This document shows positions 4,239-43,677 of a stretch of DNA of 64,000 bases, one piece after another. Origin of the DNA: Actinomycetota bacterium (lineage in GTDB: Bacteria > Actinomycetota > Thermoleophilia > Solirubrobacterales > 70-9); the NCBI GenBank assembly GCA_018268675.1, contig JAFDWB010000084.1:248001-312000 (forward strand), given 5' to 3'. The notes under the pieces are model-generated. The model did not search any database and had not been told where the DNA came from. It saw only the letters and a list, made by a program, of their open reading frames with translations. The stretch's first letter is position 1; every line of letters begins with the position of its first letter. Both the position numbers and the translations under genes were made by a program.

Positions 4239-4240
4239 CA

Positions 4241-4273
4241 GGACTTCCCGCTCCCGGGGCCGGGATTTCCCGC
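4241..4273. promoter_or_regulatory. paired dyads in the ALDH / sensor-kinase divergent promoter
   Basis: CCGGGATTTCCCGC (4260-4273) is a good match to the island motif GCGGG-4N-CCCGC. A degenerate copy with an intact right half, GGACTTCCCGC, lies at 4241-4251. Centres are 22 bp apart. The site lies 22 bp upstream of the ALDH start and 42 bp upstream of the kinase start, so it could serve both, including autoregulation of the kinase/regulator. Confidence 0.5.
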
Positions 4274-4315
4274 TCGCGTCGGGCCTCGGACCCTCCGTAC
4301 AATTTCGGAGGGTCG

Positions 4316-6541
4316 ATGACTTCCTACCCGCACACGGGGCTGGACGAGATGATCGAGCAGCGCTACCGCAGCCTGATCTCCCTTGCCAGCGGCCTGACCA
4401 CGGTGTCGGATTGGACGCAACTCGCCTTCTGCCTCTCCCACGCGCTCGGCACCGAGTCACCGGTGCGGATCTGGGCGATGCTCCCGGACGGGCCGCAGGA
4501 GATCGTCCGCTATCCGGGCGACCAGGTCCTGCCCCTGCGCGAGGCGCGGACGCTGCGCCAGGCGGGCGGCCGCGAGGAGCCGCTGGCGACCGACGACGGC
4601 TTCCTGCTGATGCCGTTGCGCTCGGTCGGCAGCGCCGTCGCGATCGCCGAAATCCCGCTCGACGAGGATCTCGACACCGAGCTCGCCCGTCATGCGGCGC
4701 CGCTCGTGGCCTCGCGGGCGGTCGCCCTGCTGGCCAGCGGCTCGGCCGGGCTGGTGCTCGCCCCGAGCTCCGACGAGGAGGACCTGGCGGGGACGATCTC
4801 GACCTTCGCCGAGCAAGCCCGGCGGCTGCTCGACCACGACCGCCTCAGCGCCTACCTGGTGACCGAGGACGGCAAGGCGGTCGAGCGCTTCGCCGTCGCC
4901 ACCTCCCCCACCCTCCCCGGCGAGGGGGTGATCCTCCCGTTCGCCGAATTCGGCCTCCGCCACATCCTGCTGACCAACCGGGCGCTGGTCTCGGAGGACC
5001 TCGGCCAGGACCCACGGATCGTCGGCCGCGAGGACCGGGTGATCGCCCAGGCCGGCTTCCACGGCCTCCTGAGCGTGCCGCTGCGCCTCAACGGCCGCCC
5101 CTTCGGGGTGCTCAACTTCGTCAGCCGCACCTCCGGCTTCTACCGTGAGGAAGACGCCCCGATCGCCCAGCAGATCGCCGACCAGGCAAGTGTCTTCTTC
5201 GATCACATGCGGCGGCAACGGAGTGCCCGCGCCTGGGCCCGTCACGCGGTCGTGGAGCGCGAGCGCGAGCGGCTGGCCAGGGAACTGCACGACACGCTCA
5301 CCCGGGCTTTGCCGGACATCGCCCGGGGGGCACATGGGCTCGCCGCGGACCTCGAGGGCGAGGACGCACGGAGCGCCGAGGACATCGCCGAACAGGCCGA
5401 GACGGCCCTGCGCGAGACCCGGCGCGCGCTCGCCGACCTGCTGCCGCCGGCGCTTGAGTCGCAGAACCTCGAGGAGACGATCAAGGTCGAGCTCTCGCTG
5501 CTGCGCGAGAACGCCGGGGTGGCGGCCGAGCTCGAGCTGACCGGCGACACGGACGCCCTGCCGCTGGGGGTGAGACGGGCGATCTACCGGATCGTCCAGG
5601 AGGCGCTCAGCAACATCCGCCTCCACTCGGGGGCCAGCCGGGTCGACCTCAGCCTGCAGGTCGACGACGACCTGAAGCTGACGATCCACGACGACGGCAA
5701 GGGCCTCGAGCCGAGGAAGCCAGGCGCCGGCCTCGGCCTCCGCTTCATGACCGAGCGGGCGCGGGCGCTCGGCGGGATCCTGGCGATCGAGGGCGCGCCC
5801 GGCGAAGGGACCACACTGACCCTCGAACTGACCGACGTCCGCCAGTTGGCCGAAAGCCCGAGCATCGACGCCGGACGGCCGCTGCACGCCGAGGGTGGAG
5901 TGAGCCGGCGGATCTTCCTGATCGAGAGCCACCCGCTACTGCTCGCAGGGCTTACCCAGATCTTCGAGGAGCAGTCGGACATGCGGGTGGTCGGCAAGAG
6001 CAGGCGGGGGCGCGAGGCCCACCGCCATGTCTCGCGCCTGCGCCCCGACATCGTCCTGCTCGATGCCGACCGCAACGGCGCCGAGATCACCTCGCTGACC
6101 CGCGAGCTGAAGCTCGCCTCGCCGACCAGCGAGATCCTCGTCCTCTCCGACTATCACCAAGGCGACACCGAAGCGCTGCTCGACGCGGGCGCCGGCGACG
6201 TCATCGACAAGGACCTGCCGCGGGCCGAGTTCATCGAGCGGATCCGCGCCACCGGCCGCCCCGGCGGCGACGAGCCGGGCGTCGAGGTGCAGACGAGCAA
6301 GGTCCTGCCCGGGCTCACCCTCTCCTCGCGCGAGCGCGCCGTCCTCGGCCTGGTTGCCGCCGGCCAGACCAACGCCGAGATCGGCAAATCGCTCTTCCTG
6401 GCGACGAAGACGATCGAGCGCCACGTCGCCACCGTGATCGAGAAGCTCGGCGCGACCAACCGCGCCCACGCCGCCGCCCTCGCGGTCACCCACCGCCTGG
6501 TCCGCCTCGACGAGCCGATCGGCACTGACAAACCCCAATAG
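4316..6541 (+). CDS. single-chain two-component system: GAF, histidine kinase, receiver and LuxR-type DNA-binding domain
   Basis: A 741-aa cytosolic protein with no membrane segments. An N-terminal GAF-like region (about 20-145) and a second GAF domain (about 155-295) precede a HisKA_3 dimerisation domain with phospho-acceptor H325 in RERLARELHDT. The HATPase domain follows (N433 of the N-box, DDGKG and AGLGLR G-boxes, about 415-505), then a receiver (about 530-645: acidic E537, phospho-acceptor D583, K632) and a LuxR-type helix-turn-helix (about 665-730, LSSRERAVLGLVAAGQTNAEIGKS split by the wing). It thus looks like a NarX-like kinase and a NarL-like regulator fused into one chain. ATG 4316 follows GGAGG; the longer frame back to 3959 has no support. 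It is the obvious candidate regulator of the surrounding catabolic genes, sensing a small molecule through GAF. Confidence 0.9.
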   Translation: MTSYPHTGLDEMIEQRYRSLISLASGLTTVSDWTQLAFCLSHALGTESPVRIWAMLPDGPQEIVRYPGDQVLPLREARTLRQAGGREEPLATDDGFLLMPLRSVGSAVAIAEIPLDEDLDTELARHAAPLVASRAVALLASGSAGLVLAPSSDEEDLAGTISTFAEQARRLLDHDRLSAYLVTEDGKAVERFAVATSPTLPGEGVILPFAEFGLRHILLTNRALVSEDLGQDPRIVGREDRVIAQAGFHGLLSVPLRLNGRPFGVLNFVSRTSGFYREEDAPIAQQIADQASVFFDHMRRQRSARAWARHAVVERERERLARELHDTLTRALPDIARGAHGLAADLEGEDARSAEDIAEQAETALRETRRALADLLPPALESQNLEETIKVELSLLRENAGVAAELELTGDTDALPLGVRRAIYRIVQEALSNIRLHSGASRVDLSLQVDDDLKLTIHDDGKGLEPRKPGAGLGLRFMTERARALGGILAIEGAPGEGTTLTLELTDVRQLAESPSIDAGRPLHAEGGVSRRIFLIESHPLLLAGLTQIFEEQSDMRVVGKSRRGREAHRHVSRLRPDIVLLDADRNGAEITSLTRELKLASPTSEILVLSDYHQGDTEALLDAGAGDVIDKDLPRAEFIERIRATGRPGGDEPGVEVQTSKVLPGLTLSSRERAVLGLVAAGQTNAEIGKSLFLATKTIERHVATVIEKLGATNRAHAAALAVTHRLVRLDEPIGTDKPQ

Positions 6542-6550: not shown

Positions 6551-7378
6551 TCAGCCGGCCGCCAGACGGGCGCGAACGTACGCGGGATCGGCGACCTCAC
6601 GGCCGGCGGCCGCAGCCAGCTCAACCGCGCGGTGGACGAATTGGGCGTTCGAATCGGCGAGCACGCCCTTCGACCAGAAGACGTTGTCCTCGAAGCCGAC
6701 CCGGAGGTTGCCGCCGAGCGCCAGGGCCGCCAGGCTGAGAGGCAGTTGGGAGGAGCCGATCCCGATCGCCTGCCAGGCCGAGCCGGCGGGCAGCATCGCC
6801 CGCAGGGCAGGGAGCAGCGCCGGGTCGCCGGGCATCCCGCCGCGCACCCCCATCACGAAGCTGAACTGCAGCGGTTCGGAGATCAGGCCCTCGCGGACGA
6901 GGTCGAGGCAGAGGCGGACGTGGCCGAAGTCGTAGACCTCGAGCTCGGGCCGGATCCCCCGCTCCTTCATCCGCTCGGCGAGCTCGTGGACGAACTCGGG
7001 CGGGTTGTGGAAAGTGGCGCCGGCGAAAGTCATCGAGGCCGGGTTCAAGGTCGCCATCGGCACCGAGTAGAGGTCGTTGTCGACGACAGCGACCCGGTCG
7101 GCCACCGGGACGCTGAGGCCAACCCCGGTCGACGCCTGGACGACGATGTCGCAGCGCTGCTCGATCTCGCCGACGATCGCCGCGTAGACCGCCGGATCGG
7201 CGGTCGGCTCGCCGCGCTCGTCGCGGGCGTGGATGTGGGCGACCGCGGCCCCGGCCTCGGCCGCCTCGGCGACCGCGACGGCGATCTCCCGCGGGGTCAG
7301 CGGGACGCCCGGATGCTGCTCGCGGGTCGTCAGCGGGCCGGTCGGGGCGACGGTGACGATTACCGGCGCGGCGCTCAA
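6551..7378 (-). CDS. BKACE family beta-keto acid cleavage enzyme (DUF849)
   Basis: A 275-aa TIM-barrel protein of the family of 3-keto-5-aminohexanoate cleavage enzyme. These Zn enzymes condense a beta-keto acid with acetyl-CoA to give acetoacetate and a new CoA ester. The zinc ligands H48 and H50 (AHIHARD), the N-terminal APTG motif and the catalytic E230 in VGFEDN are all present. The start is TTG at 7378, overlapping the RidA stop (TTGA), so translation is coupled. BKACE members act on many beta-keto acids, so the actual substrate is unknown. In this setting it may process a keto acid from ring fission. Confidence 0.88.
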   Translation of the reverse strand: MSAAPVIVTVAPTGPLTTREQHPGVPLTPREIAVAVAEAAEAGAAVAHIHARDERGEPTADPAVYAAIVGEIEQRCDIVVQASTGVGLSVPVADRVAVVDNDLYSVPMATLNPASMTFAGATFHNPPEFVHELAERMKERGIRPELEVYDFGHVRLCLDLVREGLISEPLQFSFVMGVRGGMPGDPALLPALRAMLPAGSAWQAIGIGSSQLPLSLAALALGGNLRVGFEDNVFWSKGVLADSNAQFVHRAVELAAAAGREVADPAYVRARLAAG

Positions 7379-7779
7379 GTGCCGCGCCCGGTTCCGACCA
7401 CGGCGATCGCATCGATCTCGACCAGCAGGTCCGGGAGCATCAGGCCGGAGACCTCGAGCAGGGTACTTACCGGGTAGGGCGCCGTCAGATAACGGGCCCG
7501 AACCGGCGCCAGCTCGGCGTAGAAGTCTATCTCGGTGACGTAGGTGGTGATCTTGACGACGTCGTCGAAGCCGGCCCCGGCGGCGGCCAAGGCGCGGCCG
7601 ATGTTCTCCATCACCTGCTCGGTCTGGGCGGCGACGTCGCCGACCCCGACCACCTCGCCGGCCTCGTCGAGGGCGATCGTGCCGCCGATGAAGACGAGCT
7701 CACCGGGCGGCGTCGTGGTGACCAGGGAGTAGGGGCCGAGCGGGGCGGCGAGGCCGGCGGGTTCGGGCGCGCGCTTCAT
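7375..7779 (-). CDS. RidA / YjgF / UK114 family protein
   Basis: 134 aa, the usual size for RidA-type imine/enamine deaminases. It has the GPYS-V start, LVFIGGTIALD, QTEQVMENIGRALAAAGAGFDDVVKITTYVT (over two motifs) and the C-terminal EIDAIAVV. The conserved Arg of the active site (usually in R-A/P-A-R/V) is at VRARYL. ATG 7779 is used; the frame could start 36 bp earlier without support. It is the first gene of a two-gene operon with BKACE and is preceded by the dyad pair at 7816-7849. RidA-like members in catabolic clusters often hydrolyse reactive enamines, hinting that a nitrogenous intermediate occurs in this pathway. Confidence 0.88.
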   Translation of the reverse strand: MKRAPEPAGLAAPLGPYSLVTTTPPGELVFIGGTIALDEAGEVVGVGDVAAQTEQVMENIGRALAAAGAGFDDVVKITTYVTEIDFYAELAPVRARYLTAPYPVSTLLEVSGLMLPDLLVEIDAIAVVGTGRGT

Positions 7780-7815
7780 ACGTGCAGTCGACCACCCGCC
7801 GCACACCGGGGCCAT

Positions 7816-7849
7816 CGGGGCAGCCCGCGCTCGGCGCGGGTTTTCCCGC
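7816..7849. promoter_or_regulatory. paired dyads upstream of the RidA-BKACE operon
   Basis: GCGGGTTTTCCCGC at 7836-7849 is a perfect inverted repeat around TTTT and is the best copy of the island motif. A weaker copy, CGGGGCAGCCCGC (7816-7828), lies with its centre 21 bp away. The strong copy starts 57 bp upstream of the RidA ATG on the minus strand. The overlapping CCCGCGC-TCG-GCGCGGG-TTTT also looks like a plus-strand terminator, but no plus-strand gene ends here, which favours an operator reading. Confidence 0.55.
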
Positions 7850-7855
7850 CACTTC

Positions 7856-8821
7856 TCAGATCGACTTCAACGCCTCGATCGGCGTGATCTCCTCGACTCC
7901 GCCGGAGCGCGAGGCGGCGAGGTAGGCCGCGTAGGCGATCGCCAGGTCCTGCTCGACGCTGCCGATCGACTTGTAGACGACCCGGCGACCATCCGAGCCG
8001 GGGGGCCGGCAGAGAAAATCACCGAGCGCGACGGCCGAGTCGGGGTCGAAGCCAGCCTCGCGGGCGGCGAGCAGGTCACCGGACTCCTCAAGGGCATCGG
8101 GGGTGTCGACGATCACCGTCCCGGCCTCGGCGATCACCTGCCCGTCGAGCTCACGCTGGCCGGGCAAGGTCGAGCTGACCGAGCTGACATAACGGACCGA
8201 GGCGGGCAGGTCGGCGGCGGCGAGCGCCACGGCCCCCCGCGTCTGGGTTGCGCAGAGCGCCATCCGGGCGCCCGCGAGCGCCGCCGCCGCCGAGGGCGCC
8301 GCGGTCAGCTCGAATCCCAACTCGGCCCTGAGCTGATCGGCATAGCGTTCGCGGCTGGCCGCGGTCGGGCTGAAGACCCGCACCGACTCGATCGCGCAGA
8401 CCGAGGCCAGCGCCCGCAGTCCGTCCTGGGCCTGCAGGCCCGAACCGATCACCCCGACCTGGAGCGGTGCCTCGCCCCACTGGTGGGCCGCGGCGGCCGC
8501 GGCGGCGGCACTCGTCCGCACCACGGTCAGGTGGTTGGCATCGAGCAGGGCCAGCGGCTCGCCGCTGCCGAGGCGGTAGAGCGCGCAGAGGTAACGTACG
8601 CCGACCCCGGGGACGAGGGCGAACGCCTTGAACCCGAGGACGTCGAGGGCCGGCAGCGTGCCGCTCATCACCCGCAACCAGCCGTCGCCAAACTTCGCCG
8701 TGGAGCGCTCCGCGACCCCGTCCTCGGCACCTCCCCCGGCGATCCCCTCGCGGACCACCTCGACGGCGTCCGGGAAACGGACCAGACCACGGACGTCGGC
8801 GTCGCGGATCAGCAGGGTCAT
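7856..8821 (-). CDS. ornithine cyclodeaminase / mu-crystallin family protein
   Basis: 321-aa NAD(P)-binding protein. The Rossmann motif is VGVIGSGLQAQDGLRAL, preceded by the family segment LLDANHLTVVRTSAAAA and followed by RVFSP and the C-terminal KSIGSVEQDLAIA. Family members include ornithine cyclodeaminase, alanine dehydrogenase and ketimine reductases, so the most cautious call is an imine/amino-acid oxidoreductase of unknown substrate. ATG 8821 overlaps the stop of the upstream aldolase gene by ATGA. It is the last gene of the long minus-strand operon that begins with hydantoinase A. Confidence 0.85.
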   Translation of the reverse strand: MTLLIRDADVRGLVRFPDAVEVVREGIAGGGAEDGVAERSTAKFGDGWLRVMSGTLPALDVLGFKAFALVPGVGVRYLCALYRLGSGEPLALLDANHLTVVRTSAAAAAAAAHQWGEAPLQVGVIGSGLQAQDGLRALASVCAIESVRVFSPTAASRERYADQLRAELGFELTAAPSAAAALAGARMALCATQTRGAVALAAADLPASVRYVSSVSSTLPGQRELDGQVIAEAGTVIVDTPDALEESGDLLAAREAGFDPDSAVALGDFLCRPPGSDGRRVVYKSIGSVEQDLAIAYAAYLAASRSGGVEEITPIEALKSI

Positions 8822-9837
8822 GCCGGATTGCGGCCGACCAGAAAGGCCTCGTCGGGATCTTCGGTCACCGGCAGACCGGAGGCGACCGCGGCGGCGCGCA
8901 GTGTCGCCATCTGGCGATCGTTGATGCGGTGGTGGGGGCTGCGGATCGGACCGCCGTTGAAGCCATGCAGCCAGCCCTGGTACTTCCAGACCAGGCGGTG
9001 GACGAGGTTGGTCCCGCGGATCGCCTCGCCGATCACCTCCGCATCGGCCTGGCGGATCGGGTGGAGGCGCCAGTAGATCTCCATCGCCTCCTCGTACCGC
9101 CCCGCCTCGAGCAGGCCGTAGTAACGAGGAACCTCGCCCGCCATCGCCTCGTAGTTCGAGGTTCCCATCCACTGCATGCCGTAGTTGCGCTGCCAGACCG
9201 GGGCGTTGGCCTCGATCGGGTCGGTGACGACCAGGCGCTCGCGGTAGCGCTCGAAGATCTGCGCGATGCCGGCGACCCCGGGGGTGCCGATCTCGGTCTT
9301 CACGGCCATGATGCTCGGCACCTCGTCGATCAGCCGGCCGATCAGGTCGGGCGAGAAGTCGCTCGGGTGGAGGCGACGGAAGTTCCAGAGGAACATCGCG
9401 AAGACGATCGCGCCGAGGCCCGAGCTCTCCGCGAGCGTCCTGGTGTACTCGAAGACCTCGTTCTCGCTGGTCGGGTAGAAGGTGAGCGGATAGGAGACCA
9501 GCAACCCGTCGACGCCGGCCGCCGCCGAGTACCGTGCGAGCTCGATGTTGTCGGCGAGGGTCGCCAGCGAGGCGTGGGCGATCGTCTGCAGCTCGCCATT
9601 CGCCTCGTCGACGACGATGTCGGTCAGCTGCTTCAGCTCCTCGAAGGTCGTCCCGCACTCGCTGACGATCAGCACCCCGGTCATCCCGAGCTTCTTCTCC
9701 AACGCCACGTCGGCGCGGATCGCCTGCTCGTTCAGGCCCCGCAGGTCGGCGGTGAAGGTGGGCAGCAGACATCCGCAGTGTCCGCGCAGGTTCTCGAGCG
9801 CCCATTCGCGCGCCCCATCCGCTCCGTAGTCAGGCAT
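8818..9837 (-). CDS. DapA / N-acetylneuraminate lyase superfamily aldolase, possibly hydratase-aldolase
   Basis: 339-aa TIM-barrel aldolase. The Schiff-base lysine is K180 in IMAVKTEIGTPG, and the substrate loop is SECGTTFEELKQL in place of the usual GTTGE. The Tyr found in the FYNVP motif of DapA is missing (FAMFLWNF), so it is not a dihydrodipicolinate synthase. The hydratase-aldolases of aromatic upper pathways (NahE, PhdJ) belong to this superfamily. Beside a dihydrodiol dehydrogenase and an extradiol dioxygenase, that role is a reasonable inference: splitting a benzylidene-pyruvate into pyruvate and an aldehyde. ATG 9837 follows GGTGG and overlaps the SDR gene by 8 bp. Confidence 0.82.
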   Translation of the reverse strand: MPDYGADGAREWALENLRGHCGCLLPTFTADLRGLNEQAIRADVALEKKLGMTGVLIVSECGTTFEELKQLTDIVVDEANGELQTIAHASLATLADNIELARYSAAAGVDGLLVSYPLTFYPTSENEVFEYTRTLAESSGLGAIVFAMFLWNFRRLHPSDFSPDLIGRLIDEVPSIMAVKTEIGTPGVAGIAQIFERYRERLVVTDPIEANAPVWQRNYGMQWMGTSNYEAMAGEVPRYYGLLEAGRYEEAMEIYWRLHPIRQADAEVIGEAIRGTNLVHRLVWKYQGWLHGFNGGPIRSPHHRINDRQMATLRAAAVASGLPVTEDPDEAFLVGRNPA

Positions 9838-10684
9838 TGCCGCCACCGTCCTCTCCGCGTCGTTCGTAGGTCAGCCCGCGCACCCCAAGGCCGCCGTCGC
9901 TGGCGATCACTTCGCCGGTCACCGCCGGGGCGCGATCGCCGGCGAGCAACAGATAGAGCGCCGCATGATCCTCCGGCTCCGCCGCCAATCGCAGCGGCGT
10001 GACCGCTTCGAGCCGCGATTCCGAGTCGGCACGATCACCGAACTGGAGGGTGCGGCCGGCGAGCCCGGCCAACGCGTCGGCGACCCGGAGGCCGGTGATC
10101 GTGCCTCCTGGGGCGACGCCGTTGACCCGCACGTCCGGGGCCATCTCATGAGCGAGCTGGCGCACCACCCCGACGACGGCGTGCTTTGACGCGGTGTAGA
10201 TGACGCCGCCCCCGGACCCGGCGTGGAACCCGGCATTGGAGACGGTGAAGACCATCGAGCCGCGCCGCTCGCGTAGCTGCGGCGCCGCTGCCCGCGCGGC
10301 GAGGAGGTAGCCCAGCACATTCACCTCGAGGATCTCGGCGAAACCGGCCCGCAAGGTCGGCGCATCCATGTCCTCCAGGGCGACCGATCCGTCGAACACC
10401 CCGGCGTTGCCGACCAGCACGTCGAGGCCGCCGAAACAGTCGATCGCGGCCGCCACGGCCTCGTCGTGAGCGCCCGGATCGCGGACGTCGCCGACCACCG
10501 AGACCACTGCGTCCGGGTACAGGCCGGAGAGCTCGGACAGCGATCCGGGCGAGCGGTCGAAGGCGACGACGCGGGCGCCTTCGGACAAGAACAGGCCGGC
10601 GACCGCACGACCGATCCCGGACCCGGCACCGGTGACGAGCACGACACGGTCGTGAAGCTGGCGCTCGGGCAAGCTAGACCCCAC
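9830..10684 (-). CDS. short-chain dehydrogenase, BphB-type cis-dihydrodiol dehydrogenase
   Basis: 284 aa SDR. Cofactor motif TGAGSGIG, aspartate after strand 2 (AFDRS) for NAD preference, NAG at 93-95 and catalytic S149, Y163 and K167. From memory it resembles cis-2,3-dihydrobiphenyl-2,3-diol dehydrogenase through the stretch VFTVSNAGFHAGSGGG, YTASKHAVVGVVRQ, VRVNGVAPGG and the C-terminal DGGLGVRG, well beyond generic SDR identity. It would rearomatise the cis-dihydrodiol from the Rieske enzyme to a catechol. The GTG start at 10684 overlaps the extradiol dioxygenase gene by 11 bp. Confidence 0.88.
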   Translation of the reverse strand: MGSSLPERQLHDRVVLVTGAGSGIGRAVAGLFLSEGARVVAFDRSPGSLSELSGLYPDAVVSVVGDVRDPGAHDEAVAAAIDCFGGLDVLVGNAGVFDGSVALEDMDAPTLRAGFAEILEVNVLGYLLAARAAAPQLRERRGSMVFTVSNAGFHAGSGGGVIYTASKHAVVGVVRQLAHEMAPDVRVNGVAPGGTITGLRVADALAGLAGRTLQFGDRADSESRLEAVTPLRLAAEPEDHAALYLLLAGDRAPAVTGEVIASDGGLGVRGLTYERRGEDGGGNA

Positions 10685-11591
10685 CGGCGACGCGCGCGTC
10701 TCGGCACCGACTGGCGGTCAGCATCGCCGGCGGGATGCTCTCGCGCCAGACGTCGAATTCCATCTTGGACCCGATCCTAGGGGGCGCGGCGGGGTCGATC
10801 TCGGCCATGTCGGTGTTGACCTCGACCCGGTTGCCCTCGGGGTCCTTCAGGTAGATGAAGACATTGTTGCCGTTCACGTGGCGACCGATCGAACAGTCGA
10901 GGACGATCCCCATCCCGGCCGCCAGATCGGCGACCCGAACGAGGTCCTCGACCGCCGGGACTGCGAAGCAGAAGTGGTTCAGCCCCGGAACGTCGCCGTC
11001 GTCGCTGGCGAAGAAGGCGACGTCGTGGTGGCGGTGCCCGGCACGGAGGAAGGCGTTGAACCAGTTCGAGCCGTCGGGCCGGATCGACTCCGACAGCCGC
11101 AGGCCGAGCACCCCGATCAGGAACTCGGCGGTGACCTGGACGTCGCCGCAGTTGAGCGTGATGTGCTCGAGCGGCACCGGCCCGGCGCCTTGGTGATGGG
11201 GGGCGGGGATCGACGCGGTCGGCCGGAAGGCCTGCCGGTCGGACTCGAGGACGAGCTCGACCGCGTGACCGGAGGGCAGCGCGAAGGCGATCCCCGCCTC
11301 GATCCCGGGCTCGCTCCCGGCCGCCAGGTTCGACGCGTCGACGCCGGCCGCCGCCAGGCGCTTCCCTGCCTCCACCAACGCCGCGGCGTCGCGGACCGCG
11401 AAGGCGAAGTGGTCCACCCCCGGCTCACCGGCCTCGAGGGAGAGGTCGAAGCCGCCCTTCGTGCCACCCGACAGGTAGAGCGTCTCGCCCCGCCGCTCGA
11501 CCTCCACGACGCCGAACAGGCCGCCGTAGAAGTCGAGCATGCGCGCGCTGTCGGAGACGCCGAGCGCGACGTGGCTGAGTCGGGTGATCAC
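10674..11591 (-). CDS. type I extradiol (catechol 2,3-) dioxygenase, two VOC domains
   Basis: 305 aa with an N-terminal non-metal VOC repeat (1-115) and a C-terminal catalytic repeat. The 2-His-1-carboxylate iron ligands are H143 (LEHITLN), H206 (GLNHFCFAV) and E257 (NRVEVNTD), as in BphC/NahC. The enzyme cleaves a catechol next to the hydroxyls. GTG 11591 overlaps the hydantoinase B stop (GTGA). Its position directly before the dihydrodiol dehydrogenase supports a shared pathway. No separate ring-cleavage-product hydrolase is seen, which argues for an aldolase route rather than a biphenyl-type hydrolase route. Confidence 0.92.
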   Translation of the reverse strand: MITRLSHVALGVSDSARMLDFYGGLFGVVEVERRGETLYLSGGTKGGFDLSLEAGEPGVDHFAFAVRDAAALVEAGKRLAAAGVDASNLAAGSEPGIEAGIAFALPSGHAVELVLESDRQAFRPTASIPAPHHQGAGPVPLEHITLNCGDVQVTAEFLIGVLGLRLSESIRPDGSNWFNAFLRAGHRHHDVAFFASDDGDVPGLNHFCFAVPAVEDLVRVADLAAGMGIVLDCSIGRHVNGNNVFIYLKDPEGNRVEVNTDMAEIDPAAPPRIGSKMEFDVWRESIPPAMLTASRCRDARVAGGV

Positions 11592-13465
11592 GAGGCGTAG
11601 AGCTCCTCGGGCCGCCTGAACAGCTGCTCGCCGCCCGGGTGGACCTCACCGGGCCCAAGGCCCCGGGCGCGGTCGTCCTTGGCCCGCAGAGCCGCCCGCA
11701 GCGCCTCGGTCGCGGCCTCGTCGACCGCGTAGTCGAGCGAGTCGGCGTCGCGACACTCGATCGCCACGCCGTAGACGTCGCGCGCCTTCTCCAGCGACAG
11801 CAGCTCTTCGATCACGTCGTCGAGCACCGACTCGACCTTGCGATCCCAGGGCAGCCCGTAGCCGCCGCCACCGTTGGAGGAGAAGTGGAGCCGATCGCCG
11901 GCTTTGAGGATCGCCTTGCTGGCGAACATCCCCAGATTCTTCTCCTTCGGCGTGTCGATGTTGAGGACGACCCGGTTCGGACCGCCGTTGGTGCCGCCGG
12001 CGAGGCCGAACGGACCGACCCGCTCGCGGTCACCGAGGACGACCAGCTCGGTGTCGCCCCAGGCGGTGAAGCTGCGCGAGATCCCGAAGCCGCCGCGGAA
12101 CTCGCCGTCGCCGCAGGAATCGATCACCGCCTCCGCCTCGTCGTAGTACATCGGGTACCAGCGCTCGAGCACCTCGTTCGGCTGGTTCGAGGCCCCTCCG
12201 ATGAAGATCATCATGTAGAAGGAGTTGCCGTCGGCGTAGGTGCGGGCGCCCTGCCCGCCCTCGAGCCACATGTAGGAGACGAACGGCTGGCCGGTGGTCG
12301 GGTGGACGCCGCCGGTGCAGAAGTTCTGCAGGTTGACGGTCGCGGCGTGGACGCGGCGCGGTTCGACGTGCTGCAGCGCCTGGCCCCAGCAGGCCATCGT
12401 GATCGCGTCGACCTTCTCGTAGGCGCCTGAGCAGTAGCCGGTCACCGGGGTCGGTTCTTCGACATCGACGCAGGTCCCCTTCTTGGAGACGATGTTGATC
12501 GAGCGGACGACACCATGGTTGAGCGGCGCCAGCTCCGGGAAGCAGTGCATCGTCCCGTCGTAGGTGGCGGAGAGGAGCGCCGGACGGGCAAAGCCCCAGG
12601 AAGCGATCGGGGCCGGTCCGGAGTCGCTCCAGTCGATCGTCACCTGGTCGCCCTCGATCGTCATCTTGGCGTGGACCCGGATCATCGGTTCGCCCTCGCG
12701 GCCGAGGTCACGGTCGCCGAAGTCCTCGAACTCGTACTCGCCGTCCGCGAGTTTCGAGACCCAGGCACGGAACAGCCGCTCGGAGTGGTCCATGGTGTCC
12801 TCGAAGCCGTCCTTGACGACCTCGGCGCCGAACTTCTCGACGTAGCCGAGCAGCCGCCGTTCGACCAGCTTGCCCGCCTCGTACTGGGCGAAGATCTCCG
12901 CCACCCGCTCCTTCGGCACCCGGATGTTCATCCCGACCAGGTCCCAGATCGCCTGCACCGGCTCGTCGTTCTCGTAGAGCTTCAGGGGCGGCATGCGCAG
13001 ACCCTCGGCGTAGCATTCGGTCGCGTGCGGGTTGAACGTCCCGTGCATCGGCCCACCGACGTCCGGCCAATGACAGAGGGCGATGCCGAAGGCGAAGAGC
13101 TCGCCGTCGTGGAAGATCGGCCGCATGATCTTGACGTCGTTCTGGTGCGTGCCGCCGGTGTAGGGGTCGTTGAAGATGTAGACGTCGCCGGGCTTGAACT
13201 CGGGGACGGTCTTGACCAGATGCTGCACCGAGGACTCGAAGGTCCCCATGTGTGGGGCCTGGTCGCGCTGGCCGTGCGAGATCAGTCGCCCGTCAGGGGT
13301 GAGGACCGAGACCGAGTAGTCATGGCCCTCGGTGATCGTCGGAGCGTAGGAGACCCGCTCGATCAGTGCGCTCGCCTCGTTGCACATCGAGCGGAATGCG
13401 TTGCGCAGGACGGCGAACGTGATCGGGTCGTTACGGGTGGCGGTGTCGGTTTGTGCCGTGCTCAT
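11588..13465 (-). CDS. hydantoinase B / oxoprolinase family subunit
   Basis: 625 aa, full length for the HyuB family, with the N-terminal SALIERVSYAPTITEGHDYSV segment (split), QAPHMGTFESSV, FNDPYTGGTHQNDV, HWPDVGG and the C-terminal GGGYGLP. Partners with the HyuA-type subunit encoded just upstream. Such pairs make ATP-dependent hydantoinases, 5-oxoprolinases and acetone/acetophenone carboxylases. Sequence alone does not tell which. It probably acts on a ketone or cyclic amide intermediate of the island pathway. The start ATG is 13465, 35 bp after the HyuA stop. Confidence 0.9.
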   Translation of the reverse strand: MSTAQTDTATRNDPITFAVLRNAFRSMCNEASALIERVSYAPTITEGHDYSVSVLTPDGRLISHGQRDQAPHMGTFESSVQHLVKTVPEFKPGDVYIFNDPYTGGTHQNDVKIMRPIFHDGELFAFGIALCHWPDVGGPMHGTFNPHATECYAEGLRMPPLKLYENDEPVQAIWDLVGMNIRVPKERVAEIFAQYEAGKLVERRLLGYVEKFGAEVVKDGFEDTMDHSERLFRAWVSKLADGEYEFEDFGDRDLGREGEPMIRVHAKMTIEGDQVTIDWSDSGPAPIASWGFARPALLSATYDGTMHCFPELAPLNHGVVRSINIVSKKGTCVDVEEPTPVTGYCSGAYEKVDAITMACWGQALQHVEPRRVHAATVNLQNFCTGGVHPTTGQPFVSYMWLEGGQGARTYADGNSFYMMIFIGGASNQPNEVLERWYPMYYDEAEAVIDSCGDGEFRGGFGISRSFTAWGDTELVVLGDRERVGPFGLAGGTNGGPNRVVLNIDTPKEKNLGMFASKAILKAGDRLHFSSNGGGGYGLPWDRKVESVLDDVIEELLSLEKARDVYGVAIECRDADSLDYAVDEAATEALRAALRAKDDRARGLGPGEVHPGGEQLFRRPEELYAS

Positions 13466-13500
13466 GTCCTAGTGACCTTTCTGTTTAAGTCAGTTCGTGG

Positions 13501-15561
13501 TCAGTTCGCCGGTTTGACGGTGATGACGAGGTTCAGGTACTCGTCGACGGTCGCGGTCGCACCCGGCGGCACGAGGACCGTCGTCTCGTCGTGGTCGATC
13601 ACCGCCGGCCCGTTCACCTCCGCTCCACTTCGGAGTTTGGCCCGGGCGTAGATCGAGGTCGACTGGTGATCGCCGACCTCCGCGAAGTAGACGTCGCGGC
13701 TGCCGACCAGCGCCTCGGCGGCATCCCCGGTCTCCTCCGGGACGCGGACGTCGGCAGGGTCGGTGATGCCGATCGCGGCGACCCGGGCGTTGACGATCTC
13801 GACCTGCGAGACGCCCTCCTCGAGCCGATAGCCGAACTCCCGCTCGTACTGGTCGTTGTAGCGGGCGACGATCGTCTGCAGATCCTCCGCGGAGGCGGGC
13901 ACCGCGTCGAGGGTCAGGTTCAGGTACGGGGTCTGCCCGTAGTAGCGGACGTCGATCGACAACTCGAGCGTGCGGCGCTCCTCGGGGACCTTCTCGGCCT
14001 CCAGGACCTGGTCGGCTTCCTCGAGCAATTGCGCGTACTTGACGCCGAGGTCGTCGAGGTCGACCTCGCGGGCCTGGGTCAGGACCGGGCGGACGAAGTC
14101 GTGGCGGAGGTCGACGGAGAGGATGCCGACCGCCGAGGTCAGGCCCGCCGCGAGCGGGACGACCACCGACTTCATCTGCAGCTCGCGGGCGATCTCGACC
14201 GCGTGCAGCGGCCCGGCGCCGCCACCGGCGACGAGTGCGTAGTCGCGCGGGTCGTAGCCCCGCTCGACCGAGATCAGGCGGGCCGCCGTGATCATGCTGT
14301 CGTTGGCGATCCGGATGATCCCGTCGGCCGCCTCGGGGGTCGAGAGCCCGAGCTGCTCGCCGATCTTGGCGATCGCCTGCTCGGCCAGGTCGACGTCGAT
14401 CTTAACGTCGCCGCCGAGGTAGGTCTCGGGATTGAGCCGGCCGAGGTAGAGCTGGGCGTCGGTGACGGTCGGCTCCTCGTTGCCCTTGCCGAGGCAGGCC
14501 GGGCCGGGATCGGCGCCAGCGCTCTGCGGCCCGGTCCGCAACGAGCCGCCCTCGTCGACCCAGGCGATCGTGCCGCCGCCGGCGCCGATCGCGACCAGGT
14601 CGATCGCCGGGAAGAGGATCGGGATGTTCCAGTCGACCCGCCACTCGGACGCGATCGAGGGGACGCCTTTCTCGACCAGCGAGAGGTCGGCGCTGGTGCC
14701 GCCCATGTCGAAGGTGATGACGTTCTCGAAGCCGGCCAGTTCACCGACCCGCTTGCCGCCGATCACTCCACCGGCGGGACCCGAGTGGCAGATCCGCGCC
14801 GGCACCTCGCGCGCCGCCCGGGCGCTCATGATCCCGCCGCCGGAGTGGGTGACGAAGACCTCGCCCGGGTAACCCCAGTCGCGCAGGGCGGCGCCCAGGC
14901 CGTCCAGGTAGCGACCGATCACCGGCGCCAGGTAGGCGTTGGCGGCGACCGTCGAGGTGCGCTCGAACTCGCGCAGCTCGGGTAGCACCTCGGCCGAGGT
15001 ACAGACGAAGACATCCTCGCCGAGCTCCTCTTCGAGGATCTCCTTGGTGCGCCGCTCATGGTCTTCGTTGACGAAGGAGTTGAGGTAGGCGACGGCGACC
15101 GACTCGATCTCACGGGCGCGGAACTTGCGGGCCGCGACCCGGACGTCGTCCTCGTTCAGAGGGGTCATCACCTTCCCGAGGTAATCGACTCGCTCGCCGA
15201 CCTCGAGGATGTGGCGCCGCGGGACCAGGGCCGGCGACGGGTCCCAGTTGGAGTTGAAAAGGTCGGGGCGGTTGGCGCGGCCGGCGCCCAGCACGTCGCG
15301 CATTCCCCTGGTGGTGACCAGCCCGGCCTTGGCGCCGCGGCGCTGGATGATCGCGTTGGTGGCGATCGTCGAGCCGTGCTTGAAGGCACCGACGTCGGCG
15401 GCGGCGATACCGGCCTTGTCGAGCGCGTTCATCACGCCCTCGATGAACCGCGGCGGGGTCGAGGGCACCTTTACGGTCTGGATCTGGCGTTCCTCGGCGT
15501 CGTAGGCCACCAGGTCGGTGAAGGTGCCACCGATGTCGACTGAAACGGTCAGATTGCGCAA
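13501..15561 (-). CDS. hydantoinase A / oxoprolinase family ATP-binding subunit
   Basis: 686 aa with the ASKHA-type phosphate motif VDIGGTFTDLVAYD at the N-terminus, KHGSTIATNAIIQRRGAKAGL, the second phosphate loop TFDMGGTSADLSL and AGGGAGPLHA, which is the complete HyuA architecture. It would activate the substrate by phosphorylation for hydrolysis or carboxylation by the partner HyuB. The start is TTG (15561) with GAGGAAGGAA upstream. It is the first gene of a six-gene minus-strand operon (HyuA, HyuB, extradiol dioxygenase, SDR, aldolase, cyclodeaminase-like). A dyad copy lies 118 bp upstream. Confidence 0.9.
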   Translation of the reverse strand: MRNLTVSVDIGGTFTDLVAYDAEERQIQTVKVPSTPPRFIEGVMNALDKAGIAAADVGAFKHGSTIATNAIIQRRGAKAGLVTTRGMRDVLGAGRANRPDLFNSNWDPSPALVPRRHILEVGERVDYLGKVMTPLNEDDVRVAARKFRAREIESVAVAYLNSFVNEDHERRTKEILEEELGEDVFVCTSAEVLPELREFERTSTVAANAYLAPVIGRYLDGLGAALRDWGYPGEVFVTHSGGGIMSARAAREVPARICHSGPAGGVIGGKRVGELAGFENVITFDMGGTSADLSLVEKGVPSIASEWRVDWNIPILFPAIDLVAIGAGGGTIAWVDEGGSLRTGPQSAGADPGPACLGKGNEEPTVTDAQLYLGRLNPETYLGGDVKIDVDLAEQAIAKIGEQLGLSTPEAADGIIRIANDSMITAARLISVERGYDPRDYALVAGGGAGPLHAVEIARELQMKSVVVPLAAGLTSAVGILSVDLRHDFVRPVLTQAREVDLDDLGVKYAQLLEEADQVLEAEKVPEERRTLELSIDVRYYGQTPYLNLTLDAVPASAEDLQTIVARYNDQYEREFGYRLEEGVSQVEIVNARVAAIGITDPADVRVPEETGDAAEALVGSRDVYFAEVGDHQSTSIYARAKLRSGAEVNGPAVIDHDETTVLVPPGATATVDEYLNLVITVKPAN

Positions 15562-15678
15562 CTGAGTTCCTTCCTCGAAAGTTCGTCGGACCTGGCGTCA
15601 GGCCCCTGAAGCCCACTGTCGAGTCCAATACCAGCGGCGCCGCGGGCCTCCGGCATCGGTGTAATGACGGTCGTTGGC

Positions 15679-15692
15679 ACGGGTTTTCCCGC
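15679..15692. promoter_or_regulatory. island dyad upstream of the hydantoinase-extradiol operon
   Basis: ACGGGTTTTCCCGC matches GCGGG-4N-CCCGC with one outer mismatch. It lies 118 bp upstream of the HyuA start. A clear second copy at 22 bp spacing is not visible here, unlike at the other sites. Confidence 0.45.
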
Positions 15693-15705
15693 ATCCACCG
15701 TGAGC

Positions 15706-15733
15706 CGCCGGGCGGGCCGCACGCCGCCCGGCG
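15706..15733 (-). terminator. GC-rich hairpin after the superoxide dismutase gene
   Basis: CGCCGGGCGG (15706-15715) pairs with CCGCCCGGCG (15724-15733), a perfect 10-bp stem with an 8-nt loop, 21 bp past the sod stop. It has no T-run. The hairpin could end sod transcription and shield the HyuA promoter. Confidence 0.45.
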
Positions 15734-15754
15734 CTCCCTTTCGGCGCGTCTGCG

Positions 15755-16360
15755 CTACGCCGCCGCGGCGAGGCGTCGGCCGACCACATCCCAATCGACC
15801 ACGTTCCACCACGCCTGGAGATAGTCGGGGCGACGGTTTTGGTAGCGCAGGTAGTAGGCGTGCTCCCAGACGTCGTTGCCGAGCAGCGGCGTCTGGCCGA
15901 GCTCCAGCGGGCTGTCCTGATTGGCGGTGCTGGTCACGGTCAGCTCGCCGCCGTCGAGGACCAGCCAGGCCCAACCGGAGCCGAAGCGGGCGACTCCTGC
16001 TGCCTCGAAGCATTCCTTGAAGCTCTCGAAGGATCCGAAGACAGACTCGATCCGGCTGCCGATCTCGCCGCGCGGCTCGCCGCCGCCGTCGGGGCTCATC
16101 GACTCCCAGAAAAGGGTGTGGTTGAGATGGCCACCGGCGTTGTTGCGGACCGCCCCCTGCTTCTCGTCCGGCAAGGCGGAGAGGCTGACGATGACCTCCT
16201 CCACGTTCGCCCCCGCCAGATCGGTGTCGGCGAGGGCGGCGTTGGCTTTGTCGACGTAGGCCTGGTGGTGCTTGTCGTGGTGGAGGTGCATCGTCTGCTC
16301 GTCGATGTGCGGCTCGAGCGCGTCGTAGGGATAGGGCAACGGCGGCACGGTGAAAGACAT
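15755..16360 (-). CDS. superoxide dismutase, Fe/Mn family
   Basis: 201 aa, full length. Metal ligands are H27 in HLHHDKHH, H81 in HLNHTLFW, and the late Asp and His of the family (VVDWDVV region and [10 protein letters not shown]). It removes superoxide, which uncoupled Rieske and flavin oxygenases release. It carries an island-type dyad pair 68 bp upstream, suggesting it belongs to the same regulon. No leader peptide is visible, so it is cytosolic. Whether it uses Fe or Mn cannot be read with confidence. Confidence 0.95.
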
Positions 16361-16427
16361 GGATCGACTCCCTTGCTGGACGTTTCATGGTCGGGTCGAA
16401 GATCGCGCAGGGAAGTGATCGCGGCTG

Positions 16428-16458
16428 GCGGAAAGCCCGCGACGACCGGCGGGGATTC
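16428..16458. promoter_or_regulatory. dyad pair upstream of superoxide dismutase
   Basis: GCGGAAAGCCCGC (16428-16440) is the island motif on the minus strand (GCGGGCTTTCCGC). A half-conserved second copy with GCGGG-GATT starts at 16449. Four-base centres are 22 bp apart. The first copy begins 68 bp upstream of the sod ATG. Confidence 0.4.
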
Positions 16459-16525
16459 ACTCGCCGTGGCAGCCTCGCCGCAGTTACTTTCGGCAGACCA
16501 GAGGTCTGGACGCCCCCTCGAAAAT

Positions 16526-16555
16526 GCATAAGCAATCGATATCGATTGCTTATGC
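16526..16555. promoter_or_regulatory. 30-bp perfect AT-rich palindrome, probable operator
   Basis: Bases 16526-16540 read GCATAAGCAATCGAT and 16541-16555 are their exact reverse complement. An AT-rich 30-bp perfect palindrome is striking in DNA this rich in GC. It ends 14 bp before the ATG of the small winged-helix-like gene, and its right arm contains a TATGCT hexamer that could be a -10 box. This fits an operator for autoregulation by that protein. Confidence 0.65.
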
Positions 16556-16569
16556 TACGGTCCAATTCG

Positions 16570-16887
16570 ATGGAAAATGCGGAGGAGATCGCGGCAGCAC
16601 TTCGCCAGATCGCCGGCGGGTTCGGTCGACTCGCCGCAGCGATCAGCGGCGACGCGCCGCCCACCAACCAACGGATGCTCGACCTGATGCGCGAGTGGGG
16701 CGACCGTGGACTCAGTCGCGAGGAGGCAAGCAGCCTCTTTCGTCGCCATGGCTTCTCCCCGCAGACCGCGGGCGGCTGGTCGAGAGGCGGGTGGATCGAG
16801 CTGCGAGACGATGATCGCCGGCACCTGGCCGAGCGCTCTCGCCGCTGGATGGCCGAGCAGGACACAGAAGCCGCGGGCGATGGCTGA
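16570..16887 (+). CDS. small winged-helix-like regulator candidate (105 aa)
   Basis: The protein begins with an amphipathic helix (ENAEEIAAALRQIAGGFGRL) and continues with MLDLMREWGDRGLSREEASSLFRRHGFSP, a wing-like WSRGGWIEL and a charged tail, the order of a winged helix. I do not recognise a named family. ATG 16570 is chosen because earlier starts (16387, 16552) would place the 30-bp palindrome inside the gene. No clear ribosome site is present, so the message may be leaderless. The stop overlaps the thioesterase start by 8 bp, so the two are an operon. Confidence 0.6.
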   Translation: MENAEEIAAALRQIAGGFGRLAAAISGDAPPTNQRMLDLMREWGDRGLSREEASSLFRRHGFSPQTAGGWSRGGWIELRDDDRRHLAERSRRWMAEQDTEAAGDG

Positions 16888-17302
16888 TCCGTTCACAGTC
16901 GAGGTCGTTGCTCGCAGCTACGAGATCGACTCGAACCGCCATGTCGCGGGAGTCGTGCTCCTCCAGTACGCACAGCACGCGCGCTGGGAGTGCATGAGCC
17001 AGGCGGGCATCAGCGCGAGCGCCTGCGCCCAGGTCGGGCTGGCGCCGGGGAGCCTGGAAGAGCGGATCGCCTTTCGGCGCGAGCTGCTGGCCGGCGAAGC
17101 CGTTGAGATCTCCTGCGAGTTCCGCTGGTCGACCGGCAAATCCTTCACGGTCGCGCAAGAGCTACGTCACTCCGACGGCGGGCTGATCGCCGAGGTCGAG
17201 AACGTCGGCGGCCTGATGGACCTCGAGCAACGGCGCCTCGTCAGCGATCCGGGGGGACGTTTCGCCGAGATCGCCTCCTCCCCTGCCCTGCTGGGGCTCT
17301 GA
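16880..17302 (+). CDS. hotdog-fold acyl-CoA thioesterase (4HBT type)
   Basis: 140 aa, normal for the 4-hydroxybenzoyl-CoA thioesterase group. It has the YEIDSNRHVAGVVLLQYAQHARW signature (split by the turn) with the catalytic Asp and the His three residues on, followed by a long helix and RRELLAGEAVEISCEF. It likely hydrolyses an acyl-CoA ester. ATG 16880 overlaps the preceding gene by 8 bp and was preferred to a start at 16706, which lies in the other gene. Confidence 0.8.
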   Translation: MADPFTVEVVARSYEIDSNRHVAGVVLLQYAQHARWECMSQAGISASACAQVGLAPGSLEERIAFRRELLAGEAVEISCEFRWSTGKSFTVAQELRHSDGGLIAEVENVGGLMDLEQRRLVSDPGGRFAEIASSPALLGL

Positions 17303-17318
17303 CCACCATCATCACCTG

Positions 17319-17970
17319 ATGACCTCCGACCGGCAAGAGGCGTCGGAGCAGATCGCCTCCGTTGTCCTAGCCGCCGGCGCCGGGCGGCGCTTCGGTGGCC
17401 GCAAGCAGTCTGGCGACGCTGCGTGGCCGGCCGCTGCTCGAGCACGCGCTGACGGCAGCCGTGGAAGGCCCAGCCGATGCGATCGTCGTCGTGCTCGGCG
17501 CCGACGCCGAGGAGATCGAGCGCGGAGTCGAGCTCGGCGACGCGACGGTGGTCCGCTGCGCCAACTGGGAATGCGGCCCGGGCGCCTCGCTCCGTGCTGG
17601 CTTGGCGGCGCTCGATCCCGACATCACGGCGGCGCTGGTGACACTCGGCGACGAGCCCTTCCTGCCGCCGGCGGCGGCATGGAGGCTGCTCGCCGCGCGC
17701 CGCCACGGGATCACCGCGCTACGCGCGACCTACTCCGGCCGCCCCGGCCATCCGGTCCTGATCGAGCGGTCGCTCTTCGCGACGCTGGCCGCCACCCCCG
17801 ATGCGCGGCCTATGGCACTGTTGGGCGAGGCCGGAATGGAGAGCGTGGAGTGCGGTGACCTCGGCGATCCAGGTGACGTCGACACTCCGGAGCAACTGAG
17901 GTGGCTGGAGGATCTCCGCGTAACGGAACAGCCGCCACGAAACTCCGCTGCGGGGACTAGCTCGTCGTGA
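17319..17970 (+). pseudogene. MobA/MocA-like nucleotidyltransferase broken by a one-base insertion
   Basis: The first frame (from ATG 17319) encodes VVLAAGAGRRFGGRKQ, the NTP-transferase signature of molybdenum cofactor cytidylyl/guanylyltransferases. The homology then continues in the next frame with LATLRGRPLLEHALTAAVEG through the GDEPF magnesium motif to 17970. Removing one T at about 17409 (CAG-T-CTG) joins both parts into one continuous protein of about 217 aa. So either this is a recent pseudogene or the assembly has an indel. The gene follows the thioesterase by 16 bp. If intact it would transfer a nucleotide to molybdopterin or a sugar-phosphate-like acceptor. Confidence 0.8.
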
Positions 17971-18043
17971 TCAGTCAAACATTGGGTCCCGGTAGCGAGG
18001 AGCCCGCCCTCAGATCTTGACGCCGTAGATACGGCTCTTAACT

Positions 18044-18271
18044 TCAGTCGATCCCGACGAACAGCTCTGCCGGCGGGACCTCAAGCCCTTCCGCGATCTT
18101 GAAGATCGTCGGGAGCGTGGGCATCCGGTCTCCAGACTCGATGCGGGCGACAGCCGTCTGATGGAGCCCGGAGCTCCAGCCGAGCTGCTCCTGGGTCAGC
18201 CCCTTGCGCTCACGGATGCGAGCGACGTTCGCAGCGAAGATTGCTCGCGAGGAGTCCAGGGGCGCGGCCAT
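18044..18271 (-). CDS. XRE-family helix-turn-helix regulator (75 aa)
   Basis: A Cro/CI-type domain fills the protein: FAANVARIRERKGLTQEQLG, then the recognition helix HQTAVARIESGDRMPTLPT and KIAEGLEVPPAELF. Size and lack of any other domain fit an element-encoded repressor. It is divergent from the small gene at 18371 across 99 bp, so it may control that promoter and the element genes downstream. Confidence 0.88.
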   Translation of the reverse strand: MAAPLDSSRAIFAANVARIRERKGLTQEQLGWSSGLHQTAVARIESGDRMPTLPTIFKIAEGLEVPPAELFVGID

Positions 18272-18370
18272 CGCCGGACATTCGCCCGCGATGCGCTTCC
18301 ACTACCTGCCAATACGTCATAAAGTTGCTAGCTTCCTGATCGCTTGGGAGATCTGGAGCGAGGGGGCGTC

Positions 18371-20936: not shown

Positions 20937-21164
20937 TCTCCATGAGCGGCGGGCCAAGGTCGCGCCGGGCCGGCCAGGAGGCCTTGAGATCCTCGGCTCC
21001 CCGAGCTAGACGTATCGATGCGGCCGCGCGAACCCGGGCGCCGGGCGTGCGGCGACGGAACGTACGACAAGGAGGCGGAGATGGCGAAGAGGGCGGCCTG
21101 CATCCCGAGGTCGAGGCATTCGCAGCCTGGTTCTGCGACTGGTGGTTGCGACGCGGGAGGGGAG

Positions 21165-22719
<1,555 letters not shown>

Positions 22720-43675: not shown

Positions 43676-43677
43676 GG

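Follow-up and report, generated by a model that had tools for sequence, protein, structure and literature searches.

A recurrent pairing of DHDPS-superfamily and OCD-family genes in a candidate aromatic catabolic cluster of a Solirubrobacterales genome

The DNA analyzed here, referred to as the window, is a stretch of 64,000 nucleotides from an Actinomycetota bacterium of the order Solirubrobacterales (assembly GCA_018268675.1, contig JAFDWB010000084.1, positions 248,001 to 312,000 of the forward strand). It has a GC content of 71% and belongs to a genome of 4.2 Mb. Between positions 15561 and 6551 it carries an eight-gene operon on the minus strand, encoding in this order HyuA, HyuB, an extradiol ring-cleavage dioxygenase (EDO), a short-chain dehydrogenase (SDR), a DHDPS-superfamily protein proposed to be a hydratase-aldolase (ALD), a protein of the ornithine cyclodeaminase (OCD) family, a Rid-family protein and a beta-keto acid cleavage enzyme (BKACE). 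We found that ALD and OCD, often together with an aldehyde dehydrogenase (ALDH), form a core that is conserved across phyla, whereas the ring-opening genes around it are swapped. Each enzyme family is ordinary; their combination is unusual yet recurrent. We tentatively read the operon as part of a modular cluster for the catabolism of a benzo-fused heterocycle, similar to the naphthalene upper pathway and with HyuAB opening a 4-quinolone-type lactam, and we place the probability of this reading slightly below even.

Results

Conservation of the operon genes among relatives

All loci were found through ALD and the co-occurrence figures are therefore conditional on it. Within the order, 10 of 232 genomes provided relatives, and at a stricter cut-off so did 9 of 399 genomes drawn from the class. 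Of 176 further ALD loci in named genomes 80 were retained, and of 25 plasmid records with ALD six were used. Genes were called by a codon model and grouped into families by single-linkage BLAST clustering, so that distant homologues may be missed; weak tblastn matches to Rid in L061, L064 and L065 were left out of the counts. The clustering covered 99 sources, namely the window and loci L026–L123, leaving aside L001–L025 (short or duplicate) and the later L124; L043 and L026 are apparently stretches of one contig. ALD was clustered in 92 sources, which collapse to 62 clusters at 90% ALD identity. Of these, 51 reach a length of 15 kb or more, and a ring-hydroxylating dioxygenase (RHO) is present in 26 of them and absent from 25.

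ALD is the best-conserved partner among the operon genes. OCD accompanies it in 82 of the 92 loci, at a distance of at most 300 bp in 72 of them and on the same strand in 71 of these. The loci missing OCD (L029, L051, L076, L077, L080, L083, L085, L086, L097 and L106) include several short stretches. ALDH was present in 52 of the 92 sources, EDO in 49, SDR in 45 and RHO in 38; HyuB (6), HyuA (5), Rid (4) and BKACE (3) were far rarer. The 26 long non-redundant loci with RHO gave a similar picture: 24 contain OCD, four HyuB, two Rid and a single one BKACE. The first-pass annotation had described Rid, BKACE, the OCD-family protein and HyuAB as one set of partners of the ring-cleavage genes, and had proposed to check in relatives which parts are always kept. 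This comparison upholds OCD as a steady partner of the aromatic genes and dissolves the rest of the set, since HyuAB (4/26), Rid (2/26) and BKACE (1/26) vary freely.

The genome to which the window belongs contains three ALD and four OCD genes, and every ALD gene adjoins an OCD gene; a rough Poisson estimate puts the probability of three such adjacencies out of three by chance at about 1.5e-8. Of the two other clusters (G000:C82:168388-169407 and G000:C55:12343-13332; L027 and L032), one carries a FAD monooxygenase together with an AMP-binding, acetoacetyl-CoA-synthetase-like enzyme and the other a RHO. The ALD match on C55 contains one TGA.

Pairwise distances, determined on 64 rows selected under a separate 90% rule, correlated with those of ALD for OCD (rho 0.46, n=56), ALDH (0.59, n=36) and RHO alpha (0.46, n=27), and each of these values was reached by 0 of 999 permutations. 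EDO distances do not follow ALD (rho -0.01). The nearest locus, from Rhodococcus koreensis (65% ALD identity), has the same set with HyuAB exchanged for a PF04199 protein, Rid kept and BKACE missing. Four contigs of metagenome-assembled genomes titled Bifidobacterium breve or Klebsiella pneumoniae also carry ALD clusters (L052, L070, L075 and L086); these titles are probably wrong.

ALD as a putative class I aldolase

ALD (8818-9837, minus strand; PF00701, 4e-15) was absent from the first gene list because its frame lay hidden in an over-long reading of OCD. While the families named in that list were all confirmed by Pfam, ALD had thus been left out. The 649-aa open reading frame in question (7856-9805) was considered as an OCD fusion and rejected, as its N-terminal part before 8821 is an out-of-frame reading over ALD.

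In sequence ALD is distant from every solved structure (best E-value 4e-9). Its AlphaFold2 model has a mean pLDDT of 93.8 and the DHDPS/NAL fold, with Z of about 31. Lys180 is shared by all 44 sequences compared and aligns with the lysine of DHDPS/NAL chains. The model thus suggests a class I aldolase fold with a Schiff-base lysine, the features expected of a NahE/PhdJ-type enzyme. PhdJ (6dan) itself appears at rank 7 of the Foldseek matches to the model and was not among the 50 matches listed by VIA-align.

OCD as a putative imino or keto acid reductase

The OCD gene (7856-8821, minus strand; PF02423, 2e-24) starts at 8821, overlapping the ALD stop codon, and encodes 321 aa. Membership in the OCD/mu-crystallin superfamily is indicated by the PF02423 score (86.5 bits, cut-off 24) and by the fold. 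The model has a mean pLDDT of 94.2 and is closest to pyrroline-2-carboxylate reductase 6t3e (Z 36.7), followed by an archaeal alanine dehydrogenase (Z 36.2) and an iminosuccinate reductase (Z 36.0). Ornithine cyclodeaminase 1u7h ranks below these reductases and dehydrogenases with Z 32.4. Arg39, Lys65 and Arg102 are invariant (44/44), and we take their columns to be those with which family members bind the carboxylate of the substrate. Compared with the OCD/mu-crystallin reductases 6t3e, 1omo and 6rqa, both the fold and the carboxylate-type residues are alike, and identity in the structural alignment is 23–24%.

OCD therefore models as an NAD(P)H-dependent reductase of the imino or keto acid type. 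A strict ornithine cyclodeaminase was rejected, as the top NCBIfam score is 84.9 bits against a cut-off of 408 and the fold ranking favors reductases. Since OCD is kept with ALD in both of the cluster styles described below, its action is expected close to the ALD step rather than on a ring nitrogen alone. A literature search, which covered few subscription journals, returned no paper on the ALD-OCD pair or on a role of OCD-family proteins in aromatic catabolism. To this extent the pathway is as unfamiliar as first noted, even if its accessory genes form no fixed combination.

Ring cleavage and oxidation enzymes

EDO (10674-11591, minus strand; PF00903) has a XylE-like VOC fold, and its top match in the PDB is the catechol 2,3-dioxygenase XylE (1mpy). 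When aligned to XylE, H143, H189, H206 and E257 were retained in 48 of 48 EDO rows, which includes the 2-His-1-Glu iron site of type I extradiol dioxygenases. SDR (9830-10684, minus strand, with its start at 10684 or 10672) is of the cis-dihydrodiol dehydrogenase type according to NCBIfam, similar to BphB and HcaB, and scores 309 bits with PRK06200 (cut-off 330), 256 bits with HcaB and 246 bits with BphB.

The plus strand carries the RHO genes some 4 kb past the operon end, near the ALDH gene and a regulator gene. RHO alpha (572-1888; PF00355 and PF00848) matches HcaE with 288 bits (cut-off 830). It is followed by RHO beta (1885-2412; PF00866, 1e-35; start set by the codon model) and by an 80-aa protein (2409-2651), also on the plus strand, a possible ferredoxin on the strength of position and codon score. 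ALDH (2712-4202, minus strand; PF00171, 4.5e-152) is closest to SSADH models, scoring 527 bits with TIGR01780 (cut-off 646) compared to 327 bits with ketoglutarate-semialdehyde models.

HyuAB, Rid and BKACE

HyuA (13501-15561, minus strand; PF01968, 4e-92, with PF05378 and PF19278) is the ATP-binding subunit of a hydantoinase/lactamase-type pair, and HyuB (11588-13465, minus strand; PF02538, 4e-132) is its partner subunit. The first-pass annotation left open whether the pair acts on cyclic amides or on ketones, and the scores lean to the amide side. With NCBIfam models, HyuA reaches 529 bits for the alpha subunit of caprolactamase compared to 327 bits for acetophenone carboxylase, and HyuB 248 bits for the beta subunit compared to 130 bits on the carboxylase side. 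The equivalog cut-offs for caprolactamase CapAB, 1000 bits each, were not reached. The top match in the PDB is N-methylhydantoinase 7hk5 for HyuA (491 bits) and likewise for HyuB. By sequence, the pair thus appears nearer to lactam hydrolases such as N-methylhydantoinase and caprolactamase than to ketone carboxylases. In L033, HyuB and HyuA lie beside ALD-OCD and precede genes for an enoyl-CoA hydratase and an aminotransferase of class III (459-6364), an arrangement that may represent another way of dealing with the nitrogen.

The Rid gene (7375-7779 or 7375-7815, minus strand; PF01042, 2.5e-27) encodes PVSTLLEV at the site where active Rid enzymes read PARSCVEV, with a serine at the arginine column. 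The catalytic arginine is R105 in E. coli numbering. A classical imine deaminase is not supported with this residue replaced.

BKACE (6551-7378, minus strand; PF05853, 6e-93) belongs to the BKACE superfamily with 311.5 bits against a cut-off of 24.8. It is nearest to the 3-keto-5-aminohexanoate cleavage enzyme Kce of lysine fermentation, which also provides the top PDB match (2y7d). In contrast to Kce, BKACE resides in an oxygen-dependent aromatic operon, and it stays below the Kce equivalog cut-off (284.7 versus 382 bits).

Two cluster styles and a probable exchangeable ring-opening slot

The 26 loci with RHO and the 25 loci without RHO differ in their gene content, a contrast that may mirror a few ancestral events. 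SDR was found in 22 of 26 loci with RHO and in 6 or 7 of 25 without, depending on the representatives, which were chosen separately. Cupins are confined to loci without RHO (0/26 versus 8/25, Fisher p=0.0017), where FAAH is also more frequent (1/26 versus 11/25, Fisher p=0.0008) and a FAD_binding_3 monooxygenase occurs in six of 25. Molybdenum hydroxylases of the XDH type show the reverse distribution (7/26 versus 0/25, Fisher p=0.0098).

Hydrolases for cyclic amides or C-N bonds, belonging to unrelated families, were present in 15 of 26 loci with RHO compared to 5 of 25 without (p=0.0095). In the loci with RHO they fall into three classes: HyuAB (4 loci), PF04199 with or without CN_hydrolase (5) and PF01522 proteins (6), which we take to resemble the allantoinase PuuE. 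The three classes never occur together in these loci; the chance of no overlap is about 0.02. HyuB presence changes five times on the ALD tree. The lactamase-like HyuAB and these hydrolases support the suggestion of nitrogen and keto acid chemistry within an aromatic route, which we still regard as the best interpretation.

A proposed pathway

We infer every reaction, the substrate class and the order of steps from these data. RHO would add O2 to the benzo ring of the substrate and SDR would produce the catechol, which EDO would cut beside the ring fusion to leave a heterocycle-CH=CH-CO-COOH compound whose side chain is an unsaturated alpha-keto acid. By hydration and cleavage of this side chain, ALD would yield pyruvate and a heterocyclic aldehyde. 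After oxidation of the aldehyde by ALDH, the resulting beta-dicarbonyl-type acid would lose CO2 to yield a 4-hydroxy-2-pyridone or 4-hydroxy-2-pyrone, whose ring the exchangeable hydrolase would then open, here by ATP-dependent action of HyuAB on a lactam. Opening of 4-hydroxy-2-pyridone would provide a beta-keto acid for BKACE. OCD would have its place at the ALD step or directly beside it, probably reducing a keto or imino acid from ring cleavage; this reaction is the weakest link of the route. As HyuAB suits a lactam and pyridone opening would yield a BKACE-type beta-keto acid, a kynurenate-like 4-quinolone is the leading candidate for the substrate class. Chromones, other quinolines or a monocyclic compound are possible substrates as well.

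The upper pathways of naphthalene and phenanthrene degradation (NahA-F, PhdJ) proceed by dioxygenation, catechol formation, extradiol cleavage, hydratase-aldolase and ALDH reactions. The window resembles them in having RHO, a dihydrodiol dehydrogenase, EDO, a DHDPS-fold protein and ALDH. Unlike the naphthalene enzymes, ALD belongs to a separate sequence group, OCD is added, and enzymes for ring opening and for beta-keto acids follow; an isomerase of the NahD type was not identified in the operon. Kynurenate is degraded by 7,8-hydroxylation and 8,8a cleavage, steps that need an RHO-type hydroxylase, a dihydrodiol dehydrogenase, an extradiol dioxygenase, an NADH reductase and an aldehyde dehydrogenase. 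The textbook route has no ALD-type enzyme, and to our knowledge there are no sequences for the classical enzymes of this pathway. Our literature search yielded no gene cluster for kynurenate and nothing useful on quinoline or chromone degradation with a hydratase-aldolase.

A parallel exists in isoflavone degradation by the ifc genes, for which our search for later papers found only the report of 2024. According to that report, 8-hydroxydaidzein is converted to X2 by IfcB through extradiol cleavage of the A-ring and further to X3, a 2-hydroxy-5-aryl-pyran-4-one; the gene for the step from X2 to X3 is stated there to be unidentified, and X3 is the substrate of two redundant cupins, whose products have the formulae C10H10O3 and C10H10O4 (PMC11069340). 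From the published formulae, C10H10O3 corresponds to X3 plus water minus CO2. Among our loci, those from Variovorax, Bradyrhizobium, Roseomonas, Ralstonia and Trinickia carry ALD-OCD-ALDH along with various subsets of ifc-like gene types, namely a FAD_binding_3 monooxygenase, a VOC-type EDO, a Peptidase_S9-like alpha/beta hydrolase, a cupin and FAAH. Their likeness to the ifc cluster was judged by gene types and taxa. Relative to the Variovorax ifc arrangement, RHO and SDR replace the FAD monooxygenase in the window, and HyuAB replaces the cupin. On one contig of Variovorax OV700, a stretch of about 45 kb contains two cupin genes and ALD-OCD-ALDH twice over (L091, L101); if the module supplied the X2-to-X3 step, two copies in one cluster would hide it from single knock-outs.

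These parallels allow a wider reading, which we consider unlikely in its full extent: ALD-OCD-ALDH might be a general, unnamed module for side-chain removal from extradiol-cleaved benzo-fused 4-oxo heterocycles, including the conversion of X2 to X3. The version in the window would act on a 4-quinolone such as kynurenate, with the lactam opened by HyuAB, by PF04199/CN hydrolase or by a PuuE-like enzyme.

Discussion

Several observations weigh against a route for a benzo-fused, nitrogen-containing heterocycle as outlined above. By sequence, ALD is not placed with NahE and PhdJ: 6dan is matched with an E-value of 0.0012, many DHDPS/NAL chains score better, and no NCBIfam model matched ALD at 1e-10. 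The RHO and ALDH genes lie outside the operon. The genome contains 15 matches to PF02538, 13 near full length and two partial, so the presence of HyuB is weak evidence. The catalytic arginine of Rid1-type enamine/imine deaminases is absent from Rid of the window and from three other Rid rows, and OCD, which also occurs in loci resembling oxygen-heterocycle (isoflavone) clusters, is not by itself evidence for nitrogen. A recognized ring-opening hydrolase is absent from 11 of the 26 loci with RHO. Five of the 26 have a thiamine pyrophosphate-dependent decarboxylase, which suggests another branch, and the single FAAH gene among the 26 is that of the window itself, located outside the operon (25167-26018). 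Moreover, RHO presence switches just five times on the ALD tree, so that contrasts between loci with and without RHO are not independent observations; independent-pair tests had too few pairs.

A monocyclic meta-cleavage route is the foremost alternative, and we regard it as rather improbable. EDO would act on a substituted catechol and ALD would be a 4-hydroxy-2-oxo acid aldolase that releases pyruvate and a short aldehyde, for instance succinic or malonic semialdehyde, for oxidation by an SSADH-like ALDH, leaving HyuAB, Rid, BKACE and OCD for a nitrogen-bearing side chain. The proximity of EDO to XylE in the PDB, of ALDH to SSADH models and of SDR and RHO to phenylpropionate and biphenyl types agrees with such a route, and some relatives have an alpha/beta hydrolase comparable in size to meta-cleavage hydrolases. 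The operon itself, however, is devoid of a meta-cleavage hydrolase or hydratase, ALDH falls below each curated cut-off shown, and the core recurs with ifc-type clusters, in which the cleaved ring is fused. The same ALDH scores bear on a hydroxyproline-like route, where ALD and OCD would process a cyclic imine released from the substrate. Its analogues are a pyrroline-hydroxycarboxylate deaminase of the DHDPS family, a pyrroline-2-carboxylate reductase of the OCD family and a semialdehyde dehydrogenase, and DHDPS, OCD and ALDH genes do co-occur in hydroxyproline clusters. Both the profile and the model of OCD are closest to pyrroline-2-carboxylate reductase, but ALDH prefers SSADH (527 bits) over ketoglutarate-semialdehyde models (327 bits), and the presence of EDO in 33 and RHO in 26 of the 51 long non-redundant loci ties the module to aromatic cleavage. 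We judge this route very doubtful.

An equally doubtful explanation makes HyuAB a ketone carboxylase at the head of a pathway for aromatic ketones. HyuAB shares its superfamily with acetophenone and acetone carboxylases, and a ketone, once carboxylated, is a beta-keto acid, the type of substrate taken by BKACE. Against this, the lactamase and N-methylhydantoinase scores are higher for both subunits (529 versus 327 bits for HyuA, 248 versus 130 bits for HyuB), and HyuAB is missing from 22 of the 26 loci with RHO.

Organization and surroundings of the cluster

The operon genes all run on the minus strand, and neighbors either overlap or stand at most 80 bp apart. EDO overlaps the end of HyuB by a few bases, as do ALD that of SDR, OCD that of ALD and BKACE that of Rid; the widest gap, below 80 bp, separates OCD from Rid. 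Convergent with the operon is a single-frame regulator gene on the plus strand (4316-6541) with the Pfam domain order GAF-HisKA_3-HATPase-REC-LuxR, which combines a sensor kinase and a response regulator in one chain and faces the operon end. Just upstream of the operon start, the region 18501-22700 encodes a replication-relaxation protein and a large serine recombinase; this mobile-element remnant may have a bearing on how the cluster arrived. At 17395-17970 lies a gene for a MobA-like protein whose top NCBIfam match is nicotine blue oxidoreductase.

To the left of RHO on the contig of the window, L009 contains subunits of an XDH-type molybdenum hydroxylase, a levoglucosan-dehydrogenase-like protein and an SDR (13545-19761). 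The hydroxylase (13545-17411), which was considered as a possible member of the pathway, matches NCBIfam models of the glyceraldehyde, hydroxybenzoyl-CoA, xanthine and CO dehydrogenase types, all below cut-off. A second catabolic island in the window (36342-52471) comprises four clustered luciferase-like proteins, of which three were scanned and all matched PF00296. It also has transport genes and encodes an acyl-CoA-dehydrogenase-like protein as well as a flavin reductase to which a DHBP synthase domain is fused.

Implications

If the proposed module is real, one small set of genes would explain a step shared by the degradation of oxygen- and nitrogen-containing double rings such as flavonoids and quinolones. 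The module would span Actinobacteria, Proteobacteria, Binatia and Acidimicrobiia. It would supply candidate genes for the X2-to-X3 step of isoflavone degradation (PMC11069340) and possibly for the old kynurenate pathway, and OCD-family proteins would gain a role in aromatic catabolism.

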